The translations under genes were made by a program, and so were the position numbers. The notes below the pieces were generated by a model. The model saw only the letters and a program-made list of their open reading frames with translations. It was not told where the DNA came from and did not search any database. Shown piece after piece: positions 14,509-26,446 of a stretch of 64,000 bases of DNA (position 1 is its first letter; every line of letters begins with the position of its first letter). Source of the stretch: Roseivirga echinicomitans (lineage in GTDB: Bacteria > Bacteroidota > Bacteroidia > Cytophagales > Cyclobacteriaceae); assembly GCF_001592935.1 (NCBI RefSeq), contig NZ_LRDB01000001.1, positions 372,001-436,000 on the forward strand, read 5' to 3'.

Positions 14509-15291
14509 TTAAAACCAATGCTCTTGAATTAACTGCTGCATGGCGGGTTGCACTTCGTTTCCAGCAATGATTTGCCTTCCGAAAATATAGTCATCGCCTC
14601 CTTTGAAATCGCTCACCATTCCACCTGCTTCTTTCACAATTAAGGCCCCTGCTGCTACATCCCAAGGTTGCAAGTTGTACTCGAAAAACCCTTCGAAACG
14701 ACCACAAGCGGTATAGGCCAAATCTACTGCCGCACTGCCCATTCTGCGTAAGCCATGGGTAGATTTCATGAACTCATCAAGAATCACCAAATACTGCGAC
14801 ATCTGCTCAAAGTTGTAATAAGGAAAGCCCGTAGCCAATAATGACTTGTCCAAAGTTTTTATGGGAGAAACTGTAATAGGGAAGTGATTCAAGAATGCGC
14901 CTTGCCCTTTTACGGCATGAAAACATTCATCCCGGTTGATCTCATATACAACACCCATGGTCAATTCATTGCGTTTCATCAAAGCAATAGACACTGCGTA
15001 GACAGGAATGCCATGTGCAAAGTTGGTGGTGCCATCCAACGGATCAACAATCCAATTATAGGTGTCTGATTTTTTAGTGGAAGTACCTTCTTCAGCAATA
15101 AAACCAGCACCTGGAAGAATCTTGCTCAAGCCTGCAACAATTCGCTTTTCAGCCTCTTTGTCTACATAGGAAACAAGGTCGTTTTTACCTTTGTATTCGA
15201 TTTTTGAATGATCAAATTTTCTGGATTCTTGCCGAATGAATTCACCGGTTTCTTTGGCAAGCACGATGACATCTTGAAGTAGTTGCTGCAT
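14509..15291 (-). CDS. Inositol monophosphatase family protein
   Basis: A 260-residue Mg2+-dependent sugar or inositol phosphatase. Metal-binding motifs are FIAEEG near 61, WIVDPLDGTTNFAHG near 81-95, and QPWDVAAGALIVKEAGG near 213. It is a cytoplasmic protein of typical family length, so hydrolysis of inositol-1-phosphate or a related phosphate is likely; substrate choice cannot be read from the sequence. The first 46 or so codons recur as a decayed copy at 17179-17317, with two accessory genes in between. Confidence 0.93.
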   Translation of the reverse strand: MQQLLQDVIVLAKETGEFIRQESRKFDHSKIEYKGKNDLVSYVDKEAEKRIVAGLSKILPGAGFIAEEGTSTKKSDTYNWIVDPLDGTTNFAHGIPVYAVSIALMKRNELTMGVVYEINRDECFHAVKGQGAFLNHFPITVSPIKTLDKSLLATGFPYYNFEQMSQYLVILDEFMKSTHGLRRMGSAAVDLAYTACGRFEGFFEYNLQPWDVAAGALIVKEAGGMVSDFKGGDDYIFGRQIIAGNEVQPAMQQLIQEHWF

Positions 15292-17385: not shown

Positions 17386-18165
17386 ATGAACTACCTTCTC
17401 AGTTTTCTCGTATTCTCAATACTTTGCTCATGTCAGCCAAAAGAGCTGCCCAAAAACGAGGTGATCATTATGGGGATGATCCACGGTGGACACAGCACCA
17501 ACCCTAATTATAACATTGAAGTCGTAAAACAACTTATTCGTGAGATTGACCCGGACTTTATTCTAACAGAATTACCTCCTGACCGATACCCTGTAGCACG
17601 TAAAGAGTTCGATGAACTAGACACCATTATGGAGTCGAGGGTACGTGTTTTTCCTGAGTATGTAGATGCTGTTTTTCCTTTGACCCGAGAAATGGATTTC
17701 GAAATTATTCCTACTGCAGGATGGACCAAACCCATGAATGACTTTAGAAATAAAAGGCTGCGTGAAATTCAGGCCGATACGGCTTGGACTGAGCGATGGG
17801 CAGAATACCAAGCAGCTGGCAGAAAATCCAGCGAAGCATTGAAAGCCGCAGGAGACTCAAACGACCCCTATTTCATTAATTCTGATGCATATGATGCTGC
17901 CAACGAAATTCGGTACGAGGCTTATAACCGCATTCTTAATGATGAATTGCTCTTGGGCGGTTGGGACAACATTAACATAGCTCATTACTGGAACATTGAA
18001 AAAGCACTGAACGAGCACAAGAATGAGGGAAAACGATTTTTAATAACTTACGGTGCAGGCCATAAAGGTTGGTTTTTACGTGAGCTTCACAAACGTGATG
18101 ACATTAAAATTATTGAGATGAAGCCTTATTTAGACAAGGTGCTAAAAGACAAAGCCAGCAAGTGA
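17386..18165 (+). CDS. TIKI/TraB-like lipoprotein, function unknown
   Basis: A 259-residue lipoprotein (hydrophobic start, lipobox Cys in FSILCSCQP near 14-16). The body begins IIMGMIHGGH and has DFILTELPPDR and, near the C-terminus, ITYGAGHKGWFLRE. The two Gly-x-x-His segments and the ELPP element recall the TIKI/TraB/DUF5694 group of putative metallo-hydrolases, but I am not certain of membership. It overlaps the convergent FGase-like gene by 24 nt. Confidence 0.6.
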   Translation: MNYLLSFLVFSILCSCQPKELPKNEVIIMGMIHGGHSTNPNYNIEVVKQLIREIDPDFILTELPPDRYPVARKEFDELDTIMESRVRVFPEYVDAVFPLTREMDFEIIPTAGWTKPMNDFRNKRLREIQADTAWTERWAEYQAAGRKSSEALKAAGDSNDPYFINSDAYDAANEIRYEAYNRILNDELLLGGWDNINIAHYWNIEKALNEHKNEGKRFLITYGAGHKGWFLRELHKRDDIKIIEMKPYLDKVLKDKASK

Positions 18166-18837
18166 CTCACTGAGCAAATACTTAATAGAATCTAACTCCT
18201 TATTAAAGAAGAACTTTTGATTGACTTCGATTTCGATGCCTGAGTAACTTTTAACCCCAAACTTCTTGCGTAAAGTGGTGGTAAAACCATCGTCAGTACC
18301 TTTGTAGGGTTCGTTCAGGTCGATGGTAAGCAAGGGCGCTAACCCCCGAAGTTTCTCGGTCAATTCCAGCGCAATCTTGTTTTCCAACCTTCTTTTGGGG
18401 TCGAAGAGAATACCGATATCGGTAGGGCGTTTTTTGCCTTCCCAAACAGGCGTAAACGAGTGTATGGAAAAATGAGCTACTTCCTTTTTGTCCTCTGTTT
18501 CTCTTTTAATCCAATCGGTTACTGCATTTCGGTAAGGGCGATAGTATTTATTCAGCAGAAACTGCTTTACCGAAGGCTCTAGGTCAATCGTGAATTCACT
18601 AAAGAGATGAGGGTGGTTTAAAGACCTATTCACCTCTACCAATAAACGCGAAGTGGGGTGCAGAAAAACAGGGGCGGCCAATTCAATTCCAAGGTAGCTG
18701 GCAAGAATAGCAGCACCAGGGTCCCAACCCCGGTGCGACTCCAACGCCTCTTTCCCTCTTTTAAATAAATATTTATAATTCTCAGGCAATTCGTTGCCTG
18801 CATGTTCGCAGGTAATTAGAATGCTCCTTCCAGACAT
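18142..18837 (-). CDS. N-formylglutamate amidohydrolase (FGase)-like protein
   Basis: A 231-residue member of the FGase family, zinc-dependent amidohydrolases. Family elements are ITCEHAGNELP at the N-terminus, SHRGWDPGA near 35, PTSRLLVEVNRS near 62, HFSIHSFTPVW near 125 and IEIEVNQKFF near the end. There is no histidine-degradation operon here. It is the last gene of a four-gene set with C39-like peptidase, RimK-like ligase and GCS2, and overlaps GCS2 by 22 nt. In that setting it more likely cleaves an amide made by the ligases than N-formylglutamate. Confidence 0.88.
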   Translation of the reverse strand: MSGRSILITCEHAGNELPENYKYLFKRGKEALESHRGWDPGAAILASYLGIELAAPVFLHPTSRLLVEVNRSLNHPHLFSEFTIDLEPSVKQFLLNKYYRPYRNAVTDWIKRETEDKKEVAHFSIHSFTPVWEGKKRPTDIGILFDPKRRLENKIALELTEKLRGLAPLLTIDLNEPYKGTDDGFTTTLRKKFGVKSYSGIEIEVNQKFFFNKELDSIKYLLSESLAGFVF

Positions 18838-20081
18838 GGATCAAACATTTGGTTGTTTTCCAAACAGTCAGTCAATTCACGATACACCATTTTTAAATTG
18901 CTGTGCTCGTAGTTGTCGTTGGTGCTGGCCAAAATTCTACTGGCCAAAGTGCCTTGATCTAGAATTTTATGAATTTGCTCGTACCAAGGTTCAAGCCTTT
19001 CAGGATACATCACATGTAAATTGATCAGCATTTTTCTCCAGAAATCACCAGCGGTTACTTCCTCATAAGGGTTAAAACCAAAGGCTTTTAGATATTCCTT
19101 GTCGTTGATTACAGTGTTTTCACCATGCCGAATTACTCCCTTGAAAATGGCTTGTAAATCCGTGGTTTTAAACTCATGCTGCACTTCTGTAGTCATGATT
19201 TTTTCCTCCGTAAGCATTTGCAAAAAGACAATGACCAAGTTGGCAATGGCCAAATCCGCAGCAGGGCATTCTTGAATATCAATGATCCTGATTTCAATCG
19301 CTCCACGATCGAAACGAGCAATTGCACCACGAGAATTCAACCAAATCGGGTCTAAAATTCCATCTGGATCATGCGGAGCAATGTCTTGTTCAATTTGGCT
19401 GTAAATGTACTTTCTGTAAGTCCTCTTTGAGAAAATAGCTTCCGGAATCACCTTCCCCGTAAGGGAAGGAATGATCTTTTGGTTGTTCTGGTAGTAATCC
19501 AAACGCTTGTCTAAAAAGTTGGTAAACTTACCCCCAATAATAGGCGAACTGGCCGATAAGGCTGGCAGCAAAGGCAATATCAAACGAATGGCGCCATGAA
19601 GTTTTGAGAACTCCTCATCGTCATAAAAGGGCAAGTTAATGTGCGTGCTTTGCAAGTTGCTCCAGCCATGACCTTTGCAGTTGAAAATCCTGTCGTAGGC
19701 AGCATAAATTTCACCATTGTCATGCGTCCAACGGAAGGATTCATTTTCAGGATCCATCCAAGGATGCGCAGCCGTTGGCATTAATCGCGCATGAAAAGTG
19801 CTCAAGAGCTCATTCATTTGCTCAATGGCTTCTTGAAAATCTACGCCCAATTGCACCAAGTCTTTGGTTGGGTAAGAGCATTTAAGTTCTAGCACGTGCA
19901 AAGCCAATTCGTTGGACCATGTTACTGGCCCCATGTTTATTTCTCCGGTATATTCTCCGGTCAAAGATTTGAACACCTCGTCTGCGATTGGCTTCACATT
20001 GAGGGTTTCTATATCCACAATCATGTATTCCAGCTCTATTCCAAATGCTTCGAATAGATGCAGGCGGTTCGTGTTGCTCAT
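18816..20081 (-). CDS. Glutamate-cysteine ligase type 2 (GCS2)-like carboxylate-amine ligase
   Basis: A 421-residue member of the glutamine-synthetase-fold GCS2 family, which forms an amide between a glutamate-like carboxylate and an amine using ATP. Visible elements are FGIELEYMIVD near 10, NELALHVLELK near 55, NLQSTHINLPF near 147 and RGAIEIRIIDIQECPAADLAIA near 265-285, the last in two ATP/metal-binding blocks. It starts 5 bp after the RimK-like gene. Whether the product is a gamma-glutamyl dipeptide or a modified peptide cannot be told. Confidence 0.85.
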   Translation of the reverse strand: MSNTNRLHLFEAFGIELEYMIVDIETLNVKPIADEVFKSLTGEYTGEINMGPVTWSNELALHVLELKCSYPTKDLVQLGVDFQEAIEQMNELLSTFHARLMPTAAHPWMDPENESFRWTHDNGEIYAAYDRIFNCKGHGWSNLQSTHINLPFYDDEEFSKLHGAIRLILPLLPALSASSPIIGGKFTNFLDKRLDYYQNNQKIIPSLTGKVIPEAIFSKRTYRKYIYSQIEQDIAPHDPDGILDPIWLNSRGAIARFDRGAIEIRIIDIQECPAADLAIANLVIVFLQMLTEEKIMTTEVQHEFKTTDLQAIFKGVIRHGENTVINDKEYLKAFGFNPYEEVTAGDFWRKMLINLHVMYPERLEPWYEQIHKILDQGTLASRILASTNDNYEHSNLKMVYRELTDCLENNQMFDPCLEGAF

Positions 20082-20086
20082 TTTTC

Positions 20087-21535
20087 TTATTTCATTTTTA
20101 TGCGCTCCAGCATAATTTCCATGATGCGTTCGTAGAGCTTGTTCTTGATAACCCTATCTTCCACACCCGAATCAATGTTCGGGTTGTCGTTTACTTCTAT
20201 TACATAAAATTTGCCATTCACTTCCTTGATATCTACTCCGTAAAGTCCGTTACCAATCAGTTTTGTAGCCTTTAACGCCGTTTGTAATAAGCCCACCGGA
20301 GCTTGCTCTACCGCCAAGGTGTCGGCATTACCCTCCACATGCTTGTCGCCTTCTTTCCAGTTTACAATTTGCCAATGGTCGCGCGCCATGTAATAGCGGC
20401 ACACATAAAGCGGCTCGTTATTGATAATTCCCACTCTCCAGTCGAAAGGCGTTGGCATAAATTCTTGCGCAATCAGTAATTCCGACCCTTTGAAAAAGCC
20501 CTTTAAAAGCGCTTTCAATTCCACTTCATTTTTCACCTTTTTCACGCCTCTTGAGAAAGCGCCATCAGGTTCTTTTAGAATGAAAGGGAACTGCAATTTC
20601 TCAGTGTCAGGCGTTGAGTTATCTTTTGAAATGATCGTGGATTTCGGCACAGGGATTTTGTTGCTAGTCATCAACTCGTTCAAATACACTTTGTTGGTGC
20701 ATCTCAAAATCGACATTGGGTCATCAAAAACCACCAAGCCTTCGGCTTCTGCTTTTTTGGCAAAGCGGAAAGTGTGGTTGTTTACGTTCGTGGTTTCCCT
20801 TATGAAAAGCGCATCGAACTGGGTAAGTCTGGCGTAATCGTTTTTGGTAATTATTTCCGTATTGAAACCCGTTTTTTCCGCAGCTTTTACAAACTTCTGT
20901 AATGCTTTAGCATCTGATGGTGGGTTGTCATCTTCTGGATTCACCAAAATAGCCAAGTCGAATTTTCTTCTTGGATTGCTGGTTCTCACTACCATTTTCT
21001 TGGTAAGGAAAAGACCCAGTTGTTCACTTAAAGTAATGCGTTCTTCTTCATTTAAGTCATGAATGTTGAGTGGCTTCAATAGCTCCAAAGCCCACTTTTC
21101 CTTCTTTACAAAAACCACTTTTAAGATTGGCGTTTGGAAAAGGTTGAAGAGCAAAAGGCCGAGTTTGCCCGTGTGGGCACTGCCGGTAAAGCCAAAATAT
21201 ATCCTTAGTTCAACCTTAGTTTCGGTACTTCCTTTAAAGGTCTTTTGAATCACTTCATCAAAGTCTTGCGCATCGTCCTTGATCATGGCTGGGTAGCGGA
21301 AGTCTTGAATGGTGGAAGCTTCTGGCAATACTTTGTGGTTTCTAGCTTCCGCTAAAAGCGACACATAGTATCCCGTGCTTTGATATTGGTATGATTTGCA
21401 AAGGTTAATTACCTTGACCTTGTTCAGGTGTCTTAAACCTTCGTTTGCAAAGTATTCTCTGGCGGAAATAACCTCTACGCCAGGGATATTAAAATTCCAT
21501 TTCTTTGGGTTCTCTGTAACTATTAGTTTCGACAT
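20087..21535 (-). CDS. RimK-like ATP-grasp ligase with N-terminal RLAN-type domain
   Basis: A 482-residue protein. Residues about 1-180 are the RimK-like ATP-grasp N-terminal domain (SAREYFANEGLRHL, YYVSLLAEARNHKVLP). Residues about 200-480 are an ATP-grasp ligase: DALFIRETTN, IPVPKSTIIS, FPFILKEPDGAFSRGV as the nucleotide-binding segment, and YGVDIKEVNG...VIEVNDNPNID as the metal-binding end. RimK relatives add amino acids, often glutamate, to protein or peptide C-termini. Its start overlaps the stop of the C39-like gene (TAATG), indicating translational coupling. Confidence 0.9.
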   Translation of the reverse strand: MSKLIVTENPKKWNFNIPGVEVISAREYFANEGLRHLNKVKVINLCKSYQYQSTGYYVSLLAEARNHKVLPEASTIQDFRYPAMIKDDAQDFDEVIQKTFKGSTETKVELRIYFGFTGSAHTGKLGLLLFNLFQTPILKVVFVKKEKWALELLKPLNIHDLNEEERITLSEQLGLFLTKKMVVRTSNPRRKFDLAILVNPEDDNPPSDAKALQKFVKAAEKTGFNTEIITKNDYARLTQFDALFIRETTNVNNHTFRFAKKAEAEGLVVFDDPMSILRCTNKVYLNELMTSNKIPVPKSTIISKDNSTPDTEKLQFPFILKEPDGAFSRGVKKVKNEVELKALLKGFFKGSELLIAQEFMPTPFDWRVGIINNEPLYVCRYYMARDHWQIVNWKEGDKHVEGNADTLAVEQAPVGLLQTALKATKLIGNGLYGVDIKEVNGKFYVIEVNDNPNIDSGVEDRVIKNKLYERIMEIMLERIKMK

Positions 21536-22266
21536 TACTGGTTTTTATCTCTTGGTTCAATAATTAATAAATTGGCATCGTAGGTGACTATGCCCAACAT
21601 AATCGCATTGATCAGGCGGTGGATTTCTACTTTGTAGTGTTGCTCACCGTTGTTCATGGGGTTGTTCTTTAGCGGGTCGGCAATTGACACCATTCCCGTT
21701 TCTTCAGAATAACCATTCAGTACCACAAAGTGACCCACTGGTAGACCTCTCAAATCGTCATATTCGGTTACCGTTTCACCAATTTCACGTTTGCTGCCAT
21801 ACAAATAGGTGGCACTTAAGCCTGTTAAAATTGGTTGCTTCGCGAAGAGGAATTTCTTGATCAAATCAGGACTTAAATCTTGAAATTTTATTTCTCCACC
21901 ACGCTTCAGAAACTTCATATAGGCCACAGATGCAAATTGAATTCTGCGCTGTGGTTTATATTTCTTTTGCAGTTTCAACTTCTGAAGCAAATCCGGCTGT
22001 TCTTCTTCAAACCATGATGGATCAAACAGGTTGAGGTTATAGGTGTAAAGTGTGGCTTTGTAACCGCGCTTTAATGCATGGTTGCCTAAGTTTACCGCTA
22101 ACGTTCCTCCACTTTTCAGCTCTTTTACCTCCCCAATAACATCTGTTAATGGGCTGTAATCGTCATAGTATTGATATACCGCTTGCAAACAAGTGGGACC
22201 ACAAGTGGAGTCCGTTGGCTGCGGAAGCATATCAATACCAAACCATGCTTTATCTAAAACGATCAT
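21535..22266 (-). CDS. C39-like cysteine peptidase
   Basis: A 243-residue papain-fold C39-like peptidase. The nucleophile is in DSTCGPTCLQAVY near 22, the histidine in LPVGHFVVLNGYSEE near 178, and the aspartate in SIADPLKNNPM near 197. Unlike ABC-exporter peptidases it stands alone, with no transporter and no signal peptide, so it is probably cytoplasmic. It is the first gene of the ligase operon and would be suited to trimming a peptide before or after ligation. Confidence 0.85.
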   Translation of the reverse strand: MIVLDKAWFGIDMLPQPTDSTCGPTCLQAVYQYYDDYSPLTDVIGEVKELKSGGTLAVNLGNHALKRGYKATLYTYNLNLFDPSWFEEEQPDLLQKLKLQKKYKPQRRIQFASVAYMKFLKRGGEIKFQDLSPDLIKKFLFAKQPILTGLSATYLYGSKREIGETVTEYDDLRGLPVGHFVVLNGYSEETGMVSIADPLKNNPMNNGEQHYKVEIHRLINAIMLGIVTYDANLLIIEPRDKNQ

Positions 22267-26191: not shown

Positions 26192-26446
26192 CTAAAGTAC
26201 TCCTCCATTAGGGATGCAAACCGCGGTGTTTGGCCCGCAACAGGCATATGTGTCTCCCGTACAAGTTACACTTGGACCTGTTTGGTCAATAATGGGTATT
26301 CCCAATATGGTAAGACTCCTCTCAAATTGACATTCAGAGGCACCAGGCCCTCCTGCCGCACAAGTTTCGTCAGATGCCAATGCCGCACCACTGAAAGTAA
26401 ATATAAACATCACGATAAATAAAGTACTAAATATTCTTGCTTTCAT
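26192..26446 (-). CDS. Small Cys-rich secreted peptide, NVEALA-like
   Basis: An 84-residue precursor: a long hydrophobic signal (TLFIVMFIFTFSGAALAS), then about 59 residues with six cysteines at 29, 39, 62, 69, 70 and 77. Features are CAAGGPGASECQF just after the signal and DTYACCGPNTAVC near the end. The ALAS/GGPGA--C/YACC pattern resembles the NVEALA family of small exported Bacteroidota peptides, a similarity judged from memory. Six Cys could make three disulfides after export. It is the first structural gene of the cassette, 143 bp after the HTH gene, with an AT-rich leader. A signalling, toxin or adhesion role is unknown. Confidence 0.75.
   Translation of the reverse strand: MKARIFSTLFIVMFIFTFSGAALASDETCAAGGPGASECQFERSLTILGIPIIDQTGPSVTCTGDTYACCGPNTAVCIPNGGVL

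Follow-up and report, generated by a model that had tools for sequence, protein, structure and literature searches.

Glutathionylspermidine synthetase/amidase combines, in a single fused protein acting on glutathione and spermidine, an ATP-grasp ligase with a papain-fold amidase that undoes the ligase's bond, a pairing like that in the operon described here, which draws on another ATP-grasp family. Sets of GNAT-DUF3335 with RLAN-ATP-grasp proteins, and the four-family set of this operon, belong to a class that Iyer et al. (2009) reportedly predicted, in comparative genomics of amidoligases, as makers or modifiers of peptides. In the accessible text of a 2023 review, Iyer et al. (2009) are credited with the suggestion that fusions of DUF3335 (C39-like) to GNAT are possible peptide ligases or acetylases. 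RimK and RimB, described in the available part of their source as an amino-acid ligase and an opposing peptidase in one operon (PMC12239564), set the precedent for such a pair.

Here, we analysed a window of 64,000 nucleotides from Roseivirga echinicomitans in which genes for a C39-like peptidase, an RLAN-RimK-like ATP-grasp ligase, a GCS2 ligase and an FGase run head to tail on the minus strand from 22266 to 18142 (Table 1), all four proteins exceeding their Pfam cut-offs. Searches of an open library of papers recovered none on this four-gene operon and no product for it. The operon resembles RimK/RimB in placing an ATP-grasp amino-acid ligase, of related fold (Z 26), beside a putatively opposing peptidase, but RimB is retropepsin-like, unlike the operon's C39-like enzyme, RimK lacks RLAN (its residue 1 aligns to residues 190–192 of the operon ligase) and the accessible text describes no GCS2 or FGase with RimK/RimB. 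LysX/ArgX, which works with LysW, is structurally closest to the ATP-grasp part; however, the operon's 1-kb flanks hold no conserved short carrier-like ORF, and it has the additional RLAN domain and other partner enzymes. The GCS2 protein shares its fold and several invariant glutamates and arginines with YbdK/plant-type glutamate-cysteine ligases, but forms a distinct subfamily. Finally, the C39 double-glycine leader peptidases of ABC exporters are fused to the exporter, whereas the operon protein is not.

Table 1. Positions of the four operon genes in the window
Feature	Position	Strand	Basis
C39/papain-like cysteine peptidase, first operon gene	21535..22266	-	ORF, 243 aa; Pfam Peptidase_C39_2
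RLAN domain + LysX/ArgX/RimK-like ATP-grasp ligase	20087..21535	-	ORF, 482 aa; Pfam RLAN + RimK
GCS2 carboxylate-amine ligase, distinct subfamily	18816..20081	-	ORF, 421 aa; Pfam GCS2
FGase-family (N-formylglutamate amidohydrolase-like) hydrolase	18142..18837	-	ORF, 231 aa; Pfam FGase

Gene order and its conservation

The window DNA bears out the four ORFs and the three junctions reported in an initial annotation: TAATG at 21535 between the C39 and RLAN genes, a 5-bp gap (20082–20086) between RLAN and GCS2, and a 22-bp overlap (18816–18837) of GCS2 and FGase. That annotation had also seen two amide-ligase families paired with two amide-hydrolase families, and these proved to be a closely coupled and widely conserved set. 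On the co-occurrence analysis it had proposed, the families are not scattered: strong matches to the GCS2 subfamily profile were found in 22 of 247 genomes of the phylum, all 22 adjoining an RLAN ligase, and the gene order recurs across phyla, so the four-gene association is not chance. Among the 80 most similar of at least 589 loci in the genome collection (17 phyla by record title), a sample whose proportions lean toward the window's type, C39-RLAN-GCS2 was present on one strand and in the same order in 60, and all four genes in 42. The three-gene order was kept in loci of 15 NCBI phyla and the four-gene order in loci of 12, by labels taken from record titles, which can be wrong because the loci are mostly MAGs. 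Median gaps, with gene starts estimated from alignments, were about 3 bp for C39-RLAN (65 loci), 7 bp for RLAN-GCS2 (67) and 6 bp for GCS2-FGase (44). Operon carriers in culture include Roseivirga, Pontibacter and Rufibacter.

No partner is obligatory. In non-GNAT loci that no contig end truncates, C39 was missing from 11/76, GCS2 from 9/76 and FGase from 25/70, and neither GCS2 nor GNAT was found at 10 of 109 RLAN loci (L083 among them cut by a contig end), which fall in nine places of a quick tree without bootstraps. In L072 and L107 other genes separate FGase from GCS2; L119 has its C39 gene broken into two pieces, and L122 has a short one. In whole-genome searches, G179 (L032) carried C39, RLAN and a GCS2 split over two frames; its wrong-frame ORFs entered sets A1 and A2 and the local search profiles. 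Sets A5 and A6 exclude L032; the tree and the residue counts exclude both L032 and L061, whose RLAN is split. Twenty-four of the RLAN rows went into A5; A7 was built from the window and 43 of the 80 loci, and A8 from the window and 42 of the 67 loci with GCS2.

The initial annotation had noted no peptide substrate gene, transporter or export signal and suggested an intracellular product. In the wider set of loci, neighbours (grouped by BLAST and annotated in part, so that non-homologous partners could escape) formed no recurring family above 8/31 loci, nor above 7/80 of the best 80 of at least 589, and no small ORF within 1 kb was shared by more than 6/89 loci. The suggested location is thereby made plausible. 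The largest small-ORF cluster (6/89) lies antisense inside a flanking DUF155 gene; DUF155 and AstE/AspA genes are lineage-specific neighbours, and an inositol monophosphatase, considered as a fifth partner, was confined to two lineages.

Domains and predicted folds of the four proteins

Active-site-type residues of all four proteins are nearly invariant among aligned homologues. The ATP-grasp protein carries an N-terminal RLAN domain (PF14401, Pfam residues 25–170; E 5.8e-43, 146.6 bits against a cut-off of 25) ahead of an ATP-grasp part of about residues 190–482 with a RimK domain (PF08443; E 1.1e-10, 41.9 bits against 21), and is thus a member of the RLAN-containing RimK-like ATP-grasp ligases. 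K282, K321, R367, D435, E447 and N449, which we take to be functional from the roles known for the fold, are kept in 109/109 aligned rows. In its AlphaFold model (pLDDT 83, pTM 0.62), residues 189–482, as used for the structure search, were closest by VIA-align to LysX/ArgX 5k2m (Z 28.1, rmsd 2.1 over 260 residues), with RimK 7qys at Z 26.1. The ATP-grasp profile likewise ranked LysX/RimK-type chains (best 4.5e-8) well above glutathione synthase (0.0096) among solved-structure chains. The protein falls below the cut-off of the NCBIfam RimK model TIGR00768 (79.2 bits against 143.4). The RLAN domain could bind a protein; its derivation by duplication of a pre-ATP-grasp domain drew no support (profile comparison probability 0.5 percent). 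As regards carriage by phages, two partial ATP-grasp matches in Yersinia phages were annotated as structural proteins and do not represent this system.

The GCS2 protein (PF04107; E 5.2e-24, 85.5 bits against 21) yielded a structure model (pLDDT 94, pTM 0.93) matching YbdK 1r8g (Z 39.0, 353 residues, rmsd 2.6), plant glutamate-cysteine ligase 2gwc (Z 33.1) and PafA/Dop (Z about 16 to 21). Pfam score and predicted YbdK/GCL fold together place it in the GCS2 superfamily. Identity to E. coli YbdK is 22 percent, and its profile found nothing at E 0.01 and weak matches only at E 10 among solved-structure sequences, where relatives were recovered by fold search. E16, E18 and E65 are present in 88/88 aligned homologues and H147 in 86/88.

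The C39-like protein (Peptidase_C39_2, E 2.4e-7) stands alone, with no other domain over cut-off in its 243 residues. H179 and D197 are found in 84/84 aligned homologues and Q16 and C22 in 82/84 (two gaps), all four presumably catalytic, from the roles known in the fold family. The FGase protein (PF05013; E 3.3e-22, 80.2 bits against 28.9) has a profile matching structure 2odf (E 2.6e-35) and retains E11, H12 and H126 in 59/59 homologues, but is not of the HutG type (TIGR02017, 12.9 bits against 278.75) and may act on another acyl group. It follows GCS2 closely: FGase was present in 58/88 GCS2-type loci against 1/21 other RLAN loci (11 GNAT fusions and 10 without GCS2 or GNAT), counts uncorrected for kinship and contig ends. 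At the single exception, L136, the GCS2 slot holds a 101-residue ORF, perhaps a GCS2 remnant, that resembles GCS2 N-termini over 29 residues (best E 0.001) but has no HMM match. Of 13 operon genomes searched whole, six held an operon-type FGase, always inside the operon (that of G235, absent from gene calls, was recovered by this search); in L097 a divergent FGase fills the slot.

GNAT in place of GCS2 and FGase

Other loci have, instead of GCS2 and FGase, a GNAT domain carried as a fusion on either RLAN or the C39 domain. GNAT is fused to 11 of the 109 RLAN ligases, the domain being confirmed in all 11, and these fusions occupy two places of the tree (without bootstraps), one of them deep; GNAT-DUF3335 fusions adjoin RLAN in L144 (Azospirillum) and L061. 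Such loci share the RLAN ligase with the operon and, in one form, a C39-like domain, but have GNAT for GCS2 and, in the loci seen, no adjoining operon-type FGase. Among the 247 genomes, the eight with GNAT-RLAN held no C39 of the operon subfamily, and one (G085) held a weak FGase, on another contig.

Proposed function and competing explanations

Judged from sequence and models, the four genes probably serve the synthesis and turnover of a single small molecule or tag of glutamyl type. We give about an even chance to a specific form of this, in which the module works in the cytosol, building and breaking down one small (iso)peptide of gamma-glutamyl type. GCS2 would use ATP to activate the side-chain carboxylate of glutamate and form gamma-Glu-X by bonding it to an acceptor X through the amine of X; the LysX/ArgX/RimK-like ligase would then phosphorylate a carboxylate of gamma-Glu-X and append an amino acid, usually glutamate in this family. 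The C39-like peptidase would cleave the bond formed by the ATP-grasp enzyme and FGase the acyl-type amide formed by GCS2, allowing the product to be trimmed back, recycled or set free as needed. The proposal draws on the gene set, its order and breadth, the conserved residues, the predicted folds, the alternation of GNAT with GCS2 and the tie of FGase to GCS2; from these we infer location, substrates, step order and which hydrolase reverses which ligase. In its favour, too, are the scarcity of shared small ORFs nearby, the genome's own RimK and BshC, and the RimK/RimB precedent. A free peptide and a peptide on a protein are indistinguishable from sequence, which counts against the gamma-glutamyl-peptide reading, as do the dispensability of each partner and the two separate tree positions of the GNAT fusions.

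Reversible tagging of a protein, which we regard as unlikely though the strongest competitor, would have RLAN recognise the protein, the ATP-grasp enzyme extend its C-terminus as RimK does on S6, GCS2 add a gamma-glutamyl group, and C39 and FGase erase both. The nearest ATP-grasp folds act on proteins (LysX/ArgX on the carrier LysW, RimK on ribosomal S6), the RimK/RimB pair acts on RpsF in the available part of its source (PMC12239564), and GCS2 also resembles PafA/Dop, a tag ligase and deamidase. Yet YbdK and plant GCL fit GCS2 far better, any tag or carrier ORF within 1 kb would be common to no more than the 6/89 loci above, and a separate, canonical-looking RimK (228.6 bits) lies elsewhere in the Roseivirga genome.

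A glutathione-like thiol pathway, with GCS2 making gamma-Glu-Cys, the ATP-grasp enzyme adding a third residue and C39 acting like phytochelatin synthase, is improbable. The operon does unite the enzyme classes of GshA and GshB, its GCS2 is nearest in fold to YbdK and plant GCL and is the genome's only one, and GSH-S_ATP matches amount to the RimK locus (76.6 bits) and a weak ATP-grasp (27.2 bits). However, a strong BshC match (422 bits) suggests bacillithiol as the genome's thiol, the ATP-grasp profile favours LysX/RimK-type chains over glutathione synthase, and GCS2 scores far under the NCBIfam glutamate-cysteine ligase cut-offs (TIGR02048, 30.1 bits against 249.05; TIGR02050, 59.9 against 176.4). 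We consider highly improbable a graspetide-like ribosomal pathway with C39 as leader peptidase and the ligases as cross-linkers of a core peptide: C39 peptidase-transporters and ATP-grasp enzymes are common neighbours within such loci, in the accessible text of PMC8939145, but here C39 stands alone, and the small-ORF and neighbour-family counts given above reveal no linked precursor gene.

If the operon does encode a gamma-glutamyl (iso)peptide module, lineages that have GNAT instead of GCS2 and FGase would perhaps cap this same amine by acyl transfer from acyl-CoA. A bacteria-wide cycle across some 15 phyla, in which an RLAN core would be joined by a GCS2 cap (with FGase as eraser) or a GNAT acyl cap to yield a common conjugate inside the cell whose N-cap could be switched, is a tentative extension that we hold possible, at clearly less than even chances. 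Four enzymes with near-invariant residues, in one order across 12 phyla, point to a common bacterial metabolite or tag. The exchange of GNAT for GCS2 offers a concrete chemical prediction, that both would cap an amine, and the operon is approachable in cultured bacteria that carry it, Roseivirga, Pontibacter and Rufibacter among them.

Operon architecture and conserved residues

The initial annotation had described a coupled operon of four genes for two ligases and two hydrolases; ORF calls returned its coordinates exactly (table), as a head-to-tail minus-strand array. The DNA also bears out the coupling: the C39 and RLAN genes meet in TAATG at 21535, 5 bp separate the latter from GCS2, and GCS2 overlaps FGase by 22 bp. 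The family assignments were likewise borne out by Pfam, all above curated cut-offs: Peptidase_C39_2, RLAN (PF14401) with a RimK-type ATP-grasp domain, GCS2 and FGase. Among the best 80 of at least 589 relatives, the closest named one was Roseivirga seohaensis (97 percent for the ATP-grasp protein), which assigns the window to a Roseivirga-like bacterium.

Aligned homologues retained H179 and D197 of C39 in 84/84 and Q16 and C22 in 82/84 (two gaps); K282, K321, R367, D435, E447 and N449 of the ATP-grasp protein were invariant (109/109), as were E16, E18 and E65 of GCS2 (88/88; H147 in 86, R265 in 85) and E11, H12 and H126 of FGase (59/59; H122 in 58). Which of these residues would be catalytic is judged from their families rather than from a liganded structure. 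In the RLAN-ATP-grasp model (pLDDT 83, pTM 0.62), the folds closest to residues 189-482 were those of LysX/ArgX (5k2m with Z 28.1 and rmsd 2.1 across 260 residues; 3vpb, 28.0), ahead of RimK (7qys with 26.1), with D-Ala-D-Ala ligases next at about 22 to 25; Foldseek E-values placed a D-Ala-D-Ala ligase first. The GCS2 model (pLDDT 94, pTM 0.93) matched YbdK (Z 39.0), plant glutamate-cysteine ligase (33.1) and PafA/Dop (16 to 21). The C39 profile had weak matches among the peptidase domains of exporters (E 2.1e-4 for the best) and the FGase profile matched 2odf strongly (2.6e-35). One Ignavibacteriales FGase (L134) carries a C-terminal region that is weakly HD-domain-like, below the Pfam cut-off.

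Coordinates of the operon and of other features, each in its own stretch
Feature	Stretch	Coordinates	Strand	Assignment
C39-like peptidase	window	21535-22266	minus	Pfam
RLAN/ATP-grasp ligase	window	20087-21535	minus	Pfam
GCS2	window	18816-20081	minus	Pfam
FGase	window	18142-18837	minus	Pfam
Lipoprotein-like gene	window	17386-18165	plus	weak TraB/DUF5694 similarity, below cut-off
84-aa protein	window	26192-26446	minus	
Inositol-monophosphatase family	window	14509-15291	minus	Pfam
Inositol-monophosphatase family	L062	12367-13146		BLAST cluster
Inositol-monophosphatase family	L063	11484-12263		BLAST cluster
Inositol-monophosphatase family	L064	11583-12365		BLAST cluster
DUF155 (RMND1/Sif2-like)	L052	5635-6420		Pfam
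DUF155 (RMND1/Sif2-like)	L054	7927-8715		Pfam
DUF155 (RMND1/Sif2-like)	L068	4747-5538		Pfam
FGase with C-terminal region	L134	10705-11961		
Solo RLAN ligase	L143	5902-7491		

Distribution and neighbourhood

RLAN was present in 31 of 247 genomes sampled evenly across the phylum. By profile searches and neighbourhoods of about 19 kb, GCS2 adjoined it in 22 of these, the window counted; eight held long RLAN proteins, all GNAT-RLAN fusions (L053, L055, L060, L046, L051, L057, L058, L059), and one (G155) a split RLAN beside a GNAT-DUF3335 fusion as its C39 protein. The initial annotation had proposed co-occurrence of the four families as a check; in a separate whole-genome search with the GCS2 profile, strong matches occurred in 22 genomes, every one at an RLAN-GCS2 locus (split across two frames in G179), with weak matches only (≤24.5 bits) elsewhere in the 247 genomes. 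C39 was present in 20/22, G179 being counted from a whole-genome subfamily search, and C39 of the operon subfamily was absent genome-wide from G226 and G198; FGase was present in 15/22, G235 included, and the operon type was found nowhere in the other seven genomes.

Public genome contigs yielded at least 589 relatives among at least 590 stretches. The 80 loci retained are those most like the window, so that proportions are biased towards its type, and span 17 NCBI phyla by record title, MAG contigs being possibly misbinned. Among these best 80, C39, RLAN and GCS2 occurred on the same strand and in the same order in 60 (15 phyla), and all four genes in 42 (12 phyla), with median gaps of 3, 7 and 6 bp in operon order (starts estimated via alignments; outliers L068, L072, L102, L107 and L119, other genes intervening between GCS2 and FGase in L072 and L107). 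With GNAT loci and contig ends excluded, C39 was found in 65/76, GCS2 in 67/76 and FGase in 45/70, in this window-biased set; a divergent FGase occupies the FGase slot of L097, scored as lacking it. A Legionella adelaidensis plasmid record has RLAN, GCS2 and FGase annotated consecutively from its first bases, with no C39 annotated in the two stretches examined.

BLAST clustering of neighbours, part of them annotated, returned no family beyond 8/31 loci or 7/80 (the best 80 of at least 589), and small ORFs of 25-110 residues, sought up to 1 kb from the operon, clustered in at most 6/89 loci, this largest cluster being antisense to a flanking DUF155 gene and inside it. The initial annotation had seen no substrate gene or transporter, and on this clustering no linked precursor, carrier or transporter was found to accompany the operon as a rule. 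An inositol-monophosphatase-family gene is adjacent to the Roseivirga operon or close by, and is immediately upstream of the GNAT-RLAN fusion at five further loci (L051, L053, L057, L058, L123; Pfam for the window, L053 and L123, BLAST cluster otherwise), an association restricted to two lineages that could be due to chance. DUF155 immediately precedes C39 in L052, L054, L068 and, by BLAST cluster, L056, L072, L073 and L075; in L065 one gene separates the two (Pfam). In the window, the lipoprotein-like gene is convergent with FGase, their 3' ends overlapping by 24 bp, and the 84-aa protein has six cysteines and a signal-like N-terminal stretch.

Apparent exchange of GCS2 and GNAT

The tree of 109 RLAN ligases comprised 88 with adjacent GCS2, 11 GNAT fusions (domain confirmed in 11/11) and ten with neither found. 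The fusions occupied two positions, nine nested among GCS2-type rows and two deep, and the ten were spread over nine (L083 at a contig end). In Azospirillum (L144) and G155 (L061), the RLAN ligase adjoins a GNAT-DUF3335 fusion, in which DUF3335 is the C39-like peptidase domain. Within the sample of 247, operon-type C39 was found in 0/8 GNAT-RLAN genomes, and FGase in one (G085), as a weak match on a different contig. FGase accompanied 58/88 GCS2-type loci vs 1/21 other RLAN loci; the exception, L136, has in the GCS2 slot an ORF that no profile hits and that resembles GCS2 N-termini over 29 residues (E 0.001 at best). On these distributions, GCS2 and GNAT appear to replace one another, and FGase accompanies GCS2. 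Both the GCS2 and GNAT families acylate amines, which suggests, without proof, that the same amine is capped by one or the other.

A solo RLAN ligase (L143), annotated as a RimK family alpha-L-glutamate ligase on a Pseudomonas aeruginosa plasmid record, lies near pagP and a gamma-glutamyltransferase gene, with GCS2, C39 and FGase absent from the 13-kb stretch.

Putative function

The window genome has a separate RimK (228.6 bits) and BshC (422 bits), and its glutathione-synthetase matches comprise the RimK locus plus a single weak ATP-grasp; the operon is thus probably dispensable for S6 modification and the main thiol. The reading we favour is that a small gamma-glutamyl-type peptide is made and broken down again in the cytosol; the ATP-grasp enzyme would extend this peptide, and the two hydrolases would reverse the two bonds made. 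A ligase and its opposing peptidase can occupy one operon, as described for RimK and RimB (PMC12239564). A protein tag is the chief alternative, since the closest ATP-grasp relatives act on proteins, and sequence alone does not discriminate between the two.

Iyer and colleagues reportedly predicted such amidoligase neighbourhoods in 2009, and we therefore rate the operon as of an already predicted kind. No account of this four-gene operon was recognised among the matches listed in open full-text literature, nor any mention of PF14401 in that searched. To the predicted kind, the present analysis adds the breadth of the operon, its conserved residues, the apparent exchange of GNAT and GCS2, and the link between FGase and GCS2.
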